DNA of 37,191 nucleotides, taken from a bacterium (lineage in GTDB: Bacteria > Hydrothermota > Tepidihabitantia > B3-TA06). The notes under the pieces were generated by a model. The model did no database searches. It saw only the letters and a list, made by a program, of their open reading frames with translations, and was not told the origin of the DNA. The stretch lies in NCBI GenBank assembly GCA_012517375.1, contig JAAYVC010000109.1, forward strand, positions 1 through 37,191. Reading direction: 5' to 3'. This document shows, one piece after another, positions 22,892 to 29,771 of the stretch. Position numbers and translations under genes: made by a program. The first letter of the stretch is position 1. Every line of letters begins with the position of its first letter.

Positions 22892-22917
22892 GGGCGCACC
22901 TGAAGGTACGCCCCTAC
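22892..22917 (-). repeat. Dispersed palindrome, copy C (after ispG)
   Basis: GGGCGCACCT, loop GA, AGGTACGCCC, then CTAC, as read on the plus strand. Same family as the copies at 28090-28115 and 28661-28686. It lies 20 bases after the ispG stop and is followed on the minus strand by GAACTTTT, so it may also end the ispG transcript. Confidence 0.7.
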
Positions 22918-26744: not shown

Positions 26745-28016
26745 GTGTTAGCGGTTCTTGCATGGATATGGAACGCCCTCATCGGAGTTCTTGCCGCGAG
26801 CTGGGAGCTTCTCTTAGAAATGTCTCCTTATCTCCTTCTTGGGTTTCTCTTCGGGGGTATCCTTCATATATTCGTATCTGTCCAGAAGATAGCGAAACAT
26901 CTCGGCGGAGCAAGCTTCTGGTCGGTTCTAAAAGCAACACTCGTCGGCATCCCGCTCCCCCTATGCTCCTGCGCCGTCATACCGACCGCTGCATCCATCC
27001 GCCAGAGCGGAGCATCCAAAGGCGCAACGCTTGCGTTCCTCATCTCGACTCCTACAACCGGCGTGGATTCGATTCTTGCGACGTACTCACTCCTCGGGCC
27101 CATCTTTACCCTCTACCGGATAGCCGCGTCCTTCCTTGCGGGTTTTGCTGCAGGAGTCGGCGCAAACGTCTTTGATAAAGACAAACCTGGGGATAGAGAC
27201 AAGATAAGCAACAACAATTGCGTAGTTTGCGGCAACTCGACAGACGATGAACACACACATGGTTTTTGGGTTCGCGCTAGGGCAATGGTCGCTTACTCGT
27301 TCGGCGAACTCGTAGGTGACATAGGCAAATGGCTCGTAATCGGCACGCTTATAGGCGGCGCTATCGCCTACTTTATTCCTCCGCAGATAATCGGCACTTA
27401 CTTCAAGTCCCCTATTCTTCAGATGTTAGTGATGCTGGCCGTAGGCGTACCGCTCTACATCTGCGCGACCGGTTCGCTTCCAATAGCGGCCGCGCTCGTG
27501 GCTAAGGGCATATCGCCGGGCGCCGCGCTCGTATTCCTAATCGCCGGTCCTGCGACCAACGCGACCACGATCACGGTTGTAGGCAAAACGCTCGGAAAAC
27601 GTTCACTTATAATCTACCTCACATCCATCGCCATCGTCTCACTCGGTCTTGGGTTTCTCTACAACGTCATTTTTCCATCGGGTATGGTATTCTCATCCTC
27701 GGGGAAAATCGTCGGGCTTTTCGAGCTTCCGCCGCTCGTGAGCACCATCTCCGCCGTTATCCTCATCGCTTTGATCCTCCTGCAGTTCGGGCTCTGGATG
27801 TACCGCAAGATAGCGCACAAGCCTCACCACTGCTCAGATCAAACCTGCTCCGTCGACGCTTGCTCTTGCTCCGACCATGATCATCACGAAGAGGGAGAAG
27901 GGGAGGAGGGTTGCCACTGCGGCGGCAACCACAGCGGTGGTGGCGGTCACGATGAGGGAGATAGTTGTGGTTGTGGACACTCGCACTGCCACGAACCCGT
28001 GCACAAAGACCCGTAA
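26745..28016 (+). CDS. SO_0444-type Cu/Zn efflux permease with His/Cys-rich tail
   Basis: A 423-residue polytopic permease of the DUF318/ArsP-like superfamily. The duplicated core shows GIPLPLCSCAVIPTAASIRQ (about 67-86) with FLISTPTTGVDS, and later GVPLYICATGSLPIAAALV with FLIAGPATNATT. The CSC and CATGS loops are the likely metal-path cysteines. The last 50 residues hold about 14 His and 10 Cys in short clusters (HHCSDQTC, CGCGHSHCHEP), a metal-binding tail as in SO_0444-type copper/zinc efflux proteins. A short Cys pair (CVVCG) lies in the central loop. The start is GTG 26745, with GGAGGAGAG directly before it. The metal is inferred, not shown. Confidence 0.85.
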   Translation: MLAVLAWIWNALIGVLAASWELLLEMSPYLLLGFLFGGILHIFVSVQKIAKHLGGASFWSVLKATLVGIPLPLCSCAVIPTAASIRQSGASKGATLAFLISTPTTGVDSILATYSLLGPIFTLYRIAASFLAGFAAGVGANVFDKDKPGDRDKISNNNCVVCGNSTDDEHTHGFWVRARAMVAYSFGELVGDIGKWLVIGTLIGGAIAYFIPPQIIGTYFKSPILQMLVMLAVGVPLYICATGSLPIAAALVAKGISPGAALVFLIAGPATNATTITVVGKTLGKRSLIIYLTSIAIVSLGLGFLYNVIFPSGMVFSSSGKIVGLFELPPLVSTISAVILIALILLQFGLWMYRKIAHKPHHCSDQTCSVDACSCSDHDHHEEGEGEEGCHCGGNHSGGGGHDEGDSCGCGHSHCHEPVHKDP

Positions 28017-28055
28017 CACCCGTAACACCCGTGACACACTTAACCCACGTAACAC
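28011..28055 (+). repeat. 9-bp tandem repeat with five in-frame stops
   Basis: CCGTAACAC occurs at 28011 and 28020, CCGTGACAC at 28029, with decayed units to about 28055. The permease stop is the first TAA. Because 9 is a multiple of 3, stop codons recur in the same frame at 28014, 28023, 28032, 28041 and 28050. Confidence 0.75.
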
Positions 28056-28637
28056 ACCTTTGACCTCGATTTTGACAAGGGGCTTAAGCGTAGGGGCCGA
28101 CCTTCAGGTCGGCCCGATTCATAATGAAAGAACATACTGGCAAAATCTATAGATAAACTTGTACAGGTCGCTTTCAGGCATAACAAGCTGAAAGTGCTTT
28201 TTTTAGAATGATCATCAAAAGAAAAGTTTAGTCTTGTTTCAAAGGAGAAGCCAGCGTGGCTTAGGGAGTTCCGAATATGGGTCACTATTCCCTTCAGATT
28301 TCTATCTTTATCAGGACACTGGAGAATCTGAATACTACTCCATTCGGCTTCCTGCAGGCCTTCGATAGGTATCTCTTCAATCTTTTCATAGAATTTCTCC
28401 TTCGGATAAACGAAAAAACCGTACAAGCTTGTAATAAGAACGCCTTGATTGAACAATACATAGTTATCAAGCTGATCCCAGTGTAACGATTTCCGCCATT
28501 CTTCAAAGAAACTCCCTATAGATAAGTTAGGCTTTTCTTGAAATGCAGAGGTAAAAGCTGTTTAAAAATTCAAGATTGAGGAATACCTGCCTAGTGATAA
28601 CTTTATCGTCTATTTGAGGTTGTTTTATGGTGGGCAT
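28040..28637 (-). pseudogene. Frameshifted HEPN-type protein (pEK499_p136-like)
   Basis: ATG 28637 has an AAAGGAGG site and opens a frame that stops after 36 codons (28527). The +1 frame then continues to 28040 with clearly protein-like sequence. The span is 598 bases, 3n+1, so one extra base in 28530-28561 (the A4 run at 28553-28556 is a good candidate) restores a protein of about 198 residues. The downstream part has SLYGFFVYPKEKFYEKI and then HIRNSLSHAGFSFE. The RNxxxH pattern (28256-28273) is the HEPN ribonuclease motif. The family call is by eye. Its last codons run into a palindromic repeat, and a second copy lies just upstream. It may be a real pseudogene or an assembly error. Confidence 0.6.
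28090..28115 (+). repeat. Dispersed palindrome, copy A (3' end of HEPN gene)
   Basis: GTAG followed by GGGCCGACCT, loop TC, AGGTCGGCCC: a perfect 10-bp stem. It lies inside the reading frame at the 3' end of the HEPN gene, giving a GRPEGRPLRLSP tail. It is inverted relative to copy B. Confidence 0.8.
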
Positions 28638-28660
28638 AGTGCCTCCTTTATGGTTTATCA

Positions 28661-28686
28661 GGGCCTACCTGAAGGTCGGCCCCTAC
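28661..28686 (-). repeat. Dispersed palindrome, copy B (5' side of HEPN gene)
   Basis: On the plus strand GGGCCTACCT, loop GA, AGGTCGGCCC, then CTAC, with one mismatch in the stem. It lies 23 bases upstream of the HEPN start and 30 bases past the rlmN stop. Confidence 0.8.
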
Positions 28687-28715
28687 ATTTCCTATCGATA
28701 TTTTTACGGGGTGTA

Positions 28716-29771
28716 TTAGTCAGGGTCCCCGACGGAATGCGGGGCATTCTTTTGGGGTGCAGCCAGTTGCCCGCATCCAGCAAGGATGGCTGAGCCAAGG
28801 CTCTTGCGCAAGGTCACCGCGGGCAGGTTAGGCATAATCCAGCGCATGAACTCCTCAACGTGGGCGGGTGAGGGGGACCGCAACGCGCATCCGGGGAATG
28901 GGTTCAGGGGAATGAGATTTATCTTGCAGGGGATGCCGGCAAGAAGCATCTCTAAATTCTCCGCATCCTTTTTGCGGTCGTTGACGCCCGAAACGAGCAC
29001 GTACTCGAACGTCACGCGCTTGCCCTTTAGTTCCACGAACCTCCTCACCTCCGGGATAAGCTCGTTCAAGGGATACTTCGCGGCAATCGGCATTATGCGC
29101 TCGCGCGTCTCCTGGTCTGCCGCGTTCAAGGACACAGCCAACTTGAACTGCTCAGGCTCCTTCGCGAAGCGCTTTATGCCGGGCACTATCCCCGCGGTCG
29201 ATATCGTTATCTTGCGGGCGCCGATGCTTAAGCCGAAATCCTCGTTGAGAATCCGTGCCGCAGTCAGGGTCGCTTCGTAGTTCAGGAACGGCTCGCCCAT
29301 GCCCATGAAGACCACGTTCGTTATACGTTCCGTCTGTCCCCGCTGAACCTCGAGGACCTGTCCTGCAATCTCAGAGGGTTCGAGATTTCTTACCAACCCC
29401 ATCTGCCCGGTTCTGCATATGAAACATCCTAGCGAGCAGCCCACTTGCGTGGAGACGCAAACGGTCCTGCGGTCCCTGTCCTTGAGCCAGACAGACTCTA
29501 CCGAAAACCCGTCCTCAAGCTCGAAGAGATGCTTGACCGCGCCCTCCTTTGCGGAGCCGGTGCGGTTTTTAATCTTCAAGTCCGATATCCTGAATCGCTG
29601 TGCGAGCTTTTCGCGCAAGGGCTTTGAGATATCGGTCATATCCTCAAAACCCCTCGAACCCTTCTGCCAGAGCCACTTGAATACCTGGCGCGCCCTGAAC
29701 GCAGGCAGTTCAATCTTTGAGAGCTCCTTTTCGAGTTCCTTGAGCGTGAAGTTCCTTAGTTCAGTCTTCAC
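28716..29771 (-). CDS. rlmN: 23S rRNA (adenine-2503-C2)-methyltransferase RlmN
   Basis: A radical-SAM enzyme that methylates A2503 of 23S rRNA and A37 of some tRNAs. The cluster motif is CSLGCFIC, with Cys112, Cys116 and Cys119. The two mechanistic cysteines are in place: Cys105 (VCVSTQVGC) and Cys333 (GCGQL). MGMGEPFLN and the later KINLIPLNPF are further family signatures. Its length of 351 is normal. The start is GTG 29771, overlapping the stop of the upstream MtaB gene by 4 bases (GTGA), with AGGAAG upstream, so the two RNA-modification genes are coupled. Confidence 0.96.
   Translation of the reverse strand: MKTELRNFTLKELEKELSKIELPAFRARQVFKWLWQKGSRGFEDMTDISKPLREKLAQRFRISDLKIKNRTGSAKEGAVKHLFELEDGFSVESVWLKDRDRRTVCVSTQVGCSLGCFICRTGQMGLVRNLEPSEIAGQVLEVQRGQTERITNVVFMGMGEPFLNYEATLTAARILNEDFGLSIGARKITISTAGIVPGIKRFAKEPEQFKLAVSLNAADQETRERIMPIAAKYPLNELIPEVRRFVELKGKRVTFEYVLVSGVNDRKKDAENLEMLLAGIPCKINLIPLNPFPGCALRSPSPAHVEEFMRWIMPNLPAVTLRKSLGSAILAGCGQLAAPQKNAPHSVGDPD

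Follow-up and report, generated by a model that had tools for sequence, protein, structure and literature searches.

The window, by which we mean the whole analyzed stretch of 37,191 nucleotides, carries on its minus strand, in the gap between arsP (ending at 28016) and rlmN (ending at 28716), a gene of 519 nt whose product matches in its middle part the HEPN family pEK499_p136 (PF18736; Pfam profile search, E = 1.3e-9; the score of 38.4 bits exceeds the cut-off of 26.6). Together with the RNxxxH motif, present as RNSLSH, this match bears out the HEPN assignment given in the preliminary description, and the strong ribosome site claimed there is likewise found a few nucleotides ahead of the ATG (Table 1). 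Moreover, rlmN runs in the same direction as the HEPN gene and ends 79 nt upstream of its start codon, and the HEPN gene could be expressed via read-through from rlmN. The absence of an antitoxin or MNT partner holds as well: the neighbors are arsP and rlmN, nothing further lies between the two palindromes that enclose the gene, and no MNT antitoxin gene was found adjoining it. The PADLOC models matched neither the window protein nor its intact homolog nor the other cargo proteins described below, and Rfam gave no match at the locus.

Table 1. Features of the HEPN locus in the window (positions in the window) and genes enclosed by REPs in the surveyed genomes (genome and contig)
Feature	Location	Strand	Remarks
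HEPN pEK499_p136 (PF18736) gene with two frameshifts	28119..28637	-	G000; outward REP pair; ATG 28637; native stop TGA 28119-28121 by homology
Shine-Dalgarno AAAGGAGG	28642..28649	-	within the leader from REP to start codon, about 23-24 nt
RNxxxH motif (RNSLSH)	28256..28273	-	
First frameshift region	28545..28560	-	
Second frameshift, at seven-base T run	28198..28204	-	
REP at 5' end of HEPN gene	28661..28686	-	GTAG outward; 5'-GTAGGGGCCGACCTTCAGGTAGGCCC-3' on minus strand
REP at 3' end of HEPN gene	28090..28115	+	inverted relative to the other copy; GTAG outward; GTAGGGGCCGACCTTCAGGTCGGCCC
Third REP of the same family, singleton	22892-22917	-	GTAGGGGCGTACCTTCAGGTGCGCCC
Cassette interior	28116..28660		GC 0.376, lowest of 733 equal-length stretches in 37 kb
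Second HEPN-like gene	G000 C42		outward REP pair; frameshifted; a relative carries RNGVFH
RAYT	G004 C32		outward REP pair
PD-(D/E)XK-like gene	G004 C57, G004 C65, G006 C67		outward REP pairs
PD-(D/E)XK-like gene, fourth copy	G002 C39		two REPs, one with a loop insertion
57-aa ORF	G002 C1		outward REP pair; weakest case

Intact homologs of the gene are present in the family-mates G002 and G006, and alignment against them shows that its frame is interrupted twice. The broken frame reported earlier is therefore real, but the single +1 event proposed for it gives way to two. Past the second frameshift, the C-terminus of the homolog, NFRFIIGVNDLRQFIFKF, matches HFQLVMPESDLYKFIYRF of the window in the starting frame, a match that is weak by itself (E = 0.024), and by homology the native stop falls 3 nt short of the REP. 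Because the homolog C-terminus follows the starting frame and stops before the REP, the palindrome is not the native end of the protein; it supplies C-terminal codons, as had been suggested, only in the shifted frame. For the same reason, we reject a functional C-terminal tail derived from the palindrome. Nor do we favor programmed frameshifting at the run of seven bases, given that the gene is also broken by a second, separate frameshift. The gene resembles the PF18736 family in scoring above the Pfam gathering threshold and in carrying RNxxxH, its RNase role being a prediction, and differs in its two frameshifts; as a HEPN-family gene interrupted in this manner, it is plausibly an inactivated gene of the defense or toxin type.

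The two palindromes that bracket the gene are inverted and 96% complementary over 26 nt. They had been described as a 22-base inverted palindrome; the two inverted copies are indeed there, but the repeat extends beyond 22 nt, contains an invariant GTAG and belongs to a dispersed family. The palindrome has 4 matches in the window compared to 0.00 in shuffled sequence (chance expectation, 0). A third REP of the family in the window, the singleton at 22892-22917, had been missed previously. A search of the window's own genome (G000; 2.54 Mb, 125 contigs) with the pattern GTAGGGG-N6-T..A-N6-CCC retrieved about 28 copies, 24 of them exact and 4 palindromic with one mismatch, against 0-1 in the reversed control; the arms of these copies covary and the GTAG is invariant. 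Matches are also found in all 7 family-mates, with 12-58 per genome in genus g3 and few (4-7 per genome) in genus g2, one genome of which also has one control match. Judged by the GTAG tag, the dispersed copies and the control count of 0-1, the palindrome is a GTAG-type REP, that is, a member of the class of dispersed palindromes of 20-40 nt, tagged at one end with GTAG, that serve as substrates of REP-associated tyrosine transposases, or RAYTs (PMC3733652, PMC8266576). About 26 copies occur in the genome independently of the HEPN gene, an observation that the preliminary description would have counted against a repeat-bounded cassette; it does not refute the cassette, however, since this REP is dispersed and marks the ends of several further gene units as well. 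In two further loci, L178 (2956-3003) and L053 (about 1210-1280), the REP loops are interrupted by another small palindromic repeat.

The orientation of REPs was surveyed for 159 copies from four genomes (G000, G002 and G004 nearly completely, G006 in part). Among the 22 pairs no more than 60 nt apart, 21 have GTAG facing outward, none is inward, none is '++' and one is '--'; such close inverted pairs are classical REPINs. At distances of 61-1500 nt, there are 8 outward, 5 '++', 5 inward and 2 '--' pairs, an outward excess (8 vs 12 others) that is not strong by itself. One of the 8 long outward pairs (G002 C23) depends on a spurious match, and each of the 7 that remain encloses a single gene (Table 1). 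Like a REPIN, the HEPN interval is limited by inverted REPs with GTAG outward, but in place of a short non-coding spacer it holds 545 nt with a gene. With respect to adjacent genes, many REPs adjoin the 3' end of a gene, on either side of the repeat (43/159 and 43/159), and few lie just upstream of a gene start (9/159); thus the REP at the 5' end of an enclosed gene is the informative one.

The interiors of the REP-gene-REP units tend to be AT-rich: for 5 of the 7, no flanking stretch of equal length is as low in GC. Other cassettes are broken as well, with a frameshift in C42, an in-frame TGA in C45 and an in-frame TAG in G006. This damage bears on the possibility that the frameshifts in the window are errors of assembly or sequencing in an intact HEPN gene. 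One of the frameshifts does fall in a seven-base homopolymer and the genome is a draft bin; nevertheless, two frameshifts in a single gene of 519 nt, the intact domains in the neighboring genes examined (arsP, rlmN, mtaB, the EPSP-synthase family gene, HU and cyclophilin) and the damage to other cassettes make us regard such errors as rather unlikely. Read at face value, the frames indicate that the HEPN-family cargo is decaying, like that of other cassettes. A 5' leader common to the cassettes was considered as well and is not relied on here, being supported only for the HEPN gene compared with one PD-(D/E)XK copy.

Other genes were noticed between REPs in the course of the survey. The loci L063 (G002 C8) and L060 (G006 C80) contain HicA/HicB-like genes, a HicB-like gene and a TIR-like gene of 280 aa, all named by eye, which lie between REPs in other, non-outward arrangements. 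In L012 (G000 C49:33743-34515), a 118-aa gene, DUF1801-like by eye, has a degenerate REP on one side and a REPIN on the other and is a possible further unit.

The clearest record of movement is offered by the PD-(D/E)XK-like unit, which is present in four copies at unrelated sites in three genomes. Within 150 nt inside the REPs, the copies are 63-93% identical, compared with 51-65% over the 150 nt outside and 60% for shuffled sequence; two of the outside comparisons exceed their shuffles, which we attribute, without proof, to other dispersed repeats. Given that the REPs mark both limits of the homology, it is the REP-gene-REP segment that would have moved, and on these comparisons the mobility of the unit is well supported. 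Comparison of flanking-gene segments revealed orthologous gaps in relatives that lack the PD-(D/E)XK gene; a clean pre-insertion site was found for none of the units, the orthologous gaps varying in length and being full of other repeats. All four PD-(D/E)XK genes found have a REP upstream of the start. In the protein, D109 and E126-A-K128 are invariant, as in the D...ExK motif of the PD-(D/E)XK superfamily, of which it is a putative member; it has no Pfam or PDB match, and its predicted structure, of low confidence (pLDDT 43), was set aside. Relatives are confined to three of the 147 genomes of the phylum, all in one genus, and none was detected in viral contigs. The recurrence of the same architecture around different genes, along with homology that stops at the REPs, upholds the earlier suggestion that the window contains a repeat-bounded cargo cassette.

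The arsP-rlmN-mtaB synteny is conserved among relatives, and the contents of the arsP-rlmN gap vary. In the window's genome the gap is occupied by the HEPN unit, in G006 by a PD-(D/E)XK unit and in G004 (L022 about 1145-1375, C18) by one REP and a 77-aa ORF that belongs to no family over the cut-off, and in G002 it spans about 120 nt with no REP and is empty. The comparison with sister genomes that had been proposed thus yielded an empty gap, but no clean join at the palindromes. The insertion points relative to the end of arsP differ between genomes, and arsP-rlmN thus looks like a permissive convergent gap that has been used repeatedly, not like the site of a single inherited bracket. Could the cargo have been exchanged at resident, dispersed REPs through gene conversion or homologous recombination, with no transposase involved? 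This is the main alternative mover, and it would suit both the abundance and likeness of the REPs and the finding of REPs with different cargo in the same gap of three species. We nevertheless consider it decidedly unlikely, in view of the differing insertion points, the shortness of a 26-nt common stretch as a substrate for recombination and the occurrence of a RAYT in the same kind of unit.

The distribution of the HEPN family itself is narrow. PF18736 scores above the cut-off in only 3 of the 147 genomes of the phylum, all 3 in the host family, and each of the 3 genes has an outward-facing REP upstream. The distance from REP to start codon increases from about 23-24 nt in the window to 62 nt in G002 and about 115 nt in G006 for one chosen start, being greater for the alternative start used in the alignment. 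The copies in G002 and G006, both of genus g3, have the upstream REP with no REP at the 3' end and hence represent incomplete units. This leaves the window copy as the sole complete HEPN unit, which is the chief weakness of the HEPN case. No PF18736 homologs were detected in plasmids by tblastn, and a GTDB-wide scan with the HEPN alignment returned one locus only, apparently the G006 C118 copy. Directly before the REP and HEPN gene in that contig lies a small gene (L068 460-861) that matches DUF7508 just below the cut-off and is GIY-YIG-like by eye. Elsewhere, a 435-aa ORF in G004 C57 (L216 610-1917) has an RNEVVH motif and is HEPN-like by eye, with no Pfam match over the cut-off; it occupies a gap that in G002 contains the PD-(D/E)XK unit.

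Against this background, the main null explanation can be weighed, namely that an accessory HEPN gene settled in a permissive convergent gap and the REPs were added separately, making the bracket coincidental. The many REPs that adjoin the 3' end of a gene on either side (43 + 43 of 159), the other accessory genes, HicAB-like and TIR-like, that occur close to REPs not arranged outward, and the single REP of the g3 HEPN copies all agree with independent insertion. What it does not account for is the PD-(D/E)XK homology bounded by REPs at four unrelated sites; moreover, a REP upstream of a start is rare, yet it is present in 3/3 PF18736 and 4/4 PD-(D/E)XK genes. Independent insertion is therefore unlikely in our estimate.

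With respect to the mover, a candidate is available in the family. The G004 RAYT scores 117.5 bits with the NCBIfam model REP_Tyr_transpos (cut-off 80) and retains the HLH (HUH-type) motif, and full RAYTs adjoin REPs of this family in G002 and G004. In G000, only a RAYT-like start is seen, right behind a REP, where contig C45 breaks off, and the window's own genome thus appears to have a RAYT. Separately, a Y1 transposase-like domain is found in frame within a 1148-aa DNA-methyltransferase-like open frame in L019 (G000 C47, 1-3074), where it lies between recurring DKGFKPLV segments that apparently represent a further palindrome family.

Taken together, these data lead us to propose that the window unit is probably a decayed, non-autonomous, REP-bounded cargo cassette that would have been moved in trans by a RAYT. 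The cassette would have the topology of a REPIN in which a single AT-rich gene replaces the usual spacer of 10-45 nt; a RAYT, as a REP-specific HUH transposase, could recognize both GTAG-tagged ends as hairpins and move the interval between them, as the ends themselves and the elements associated with them suggest. The cargo may have originated outside the genome and its HEPN product may once have been an RNase, the gene now being probably a pseudogene and not a mis-assembled gene.

Comparison with known systems places the cassette among elements of the REP/RAYT kind, as a variant and not a REPIN proper, because its spacer is not short. With REPINs and BIMEs (PMC3116915, PMC3733652) it shares two inverted, GTAG-outward palindromes, dispersed and located in gaps at gene 3' ends, and in these genomes REPs of this family build classical short-spacer REPINs as well; GTAG REPs, their dimers and REP-flanked transposase genes have been described, but the dimer spacers are non-coding and mostly 20-100 bp (PMC3733652), whereas those of the cassettes are 437-685 nt and hold one gene. 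REPtrons (PMC2817692, PMC6006769) have the same REP-gene-REP layout, and the unit in G004 C32 encloses a RAYT itself; in contrast, the gene enclosed in the window is not a transposase, and the sister unit is found at several sites, while REPtrons reportedly do not move as whole units (PMC6006769). In the literature searched, with most subscription papers outside its reach, no mention was found of cargo genes bounded by REPs. Palindromic ends are also typical of the non-autonomous (PATE-like) elements of the IS200/IS605 family, in which HUH Y1 transposases, relatives of the RAYTs, process them. The cassette is similar to these elements, described in part in PMC7290912, in its palindromic ends and differs from them in that the ends are GTAG-tagged REPs in inverted orientation.

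More generally, it seems to us an evenly balanced question whether the REP/RAYT system of the host family transports whole nuclease-type genes in minimal REP-gene-REP cassettes, gained and lost at shared permissive gaps such as arsP-rlmN. If so, these cassettes would represent a very small type of gene-carrying mobile element that has not been described so far, and patchily distributed single nuclease genes flanked by small palindromes would find an explanation. Palindromes regarded as spreading nothing but themselves seem to transport cargo genes too, and REP/RAYT systems would be gene vehicles if two inverted REPs are enough to carry a gene of about 500-700 bp. REPs and their transposases are present in many bacteria, and cargo of this kind would bear on how REPs spread and why RAYTs are retained, since it would allow RAYTs to gain a selective benefit.
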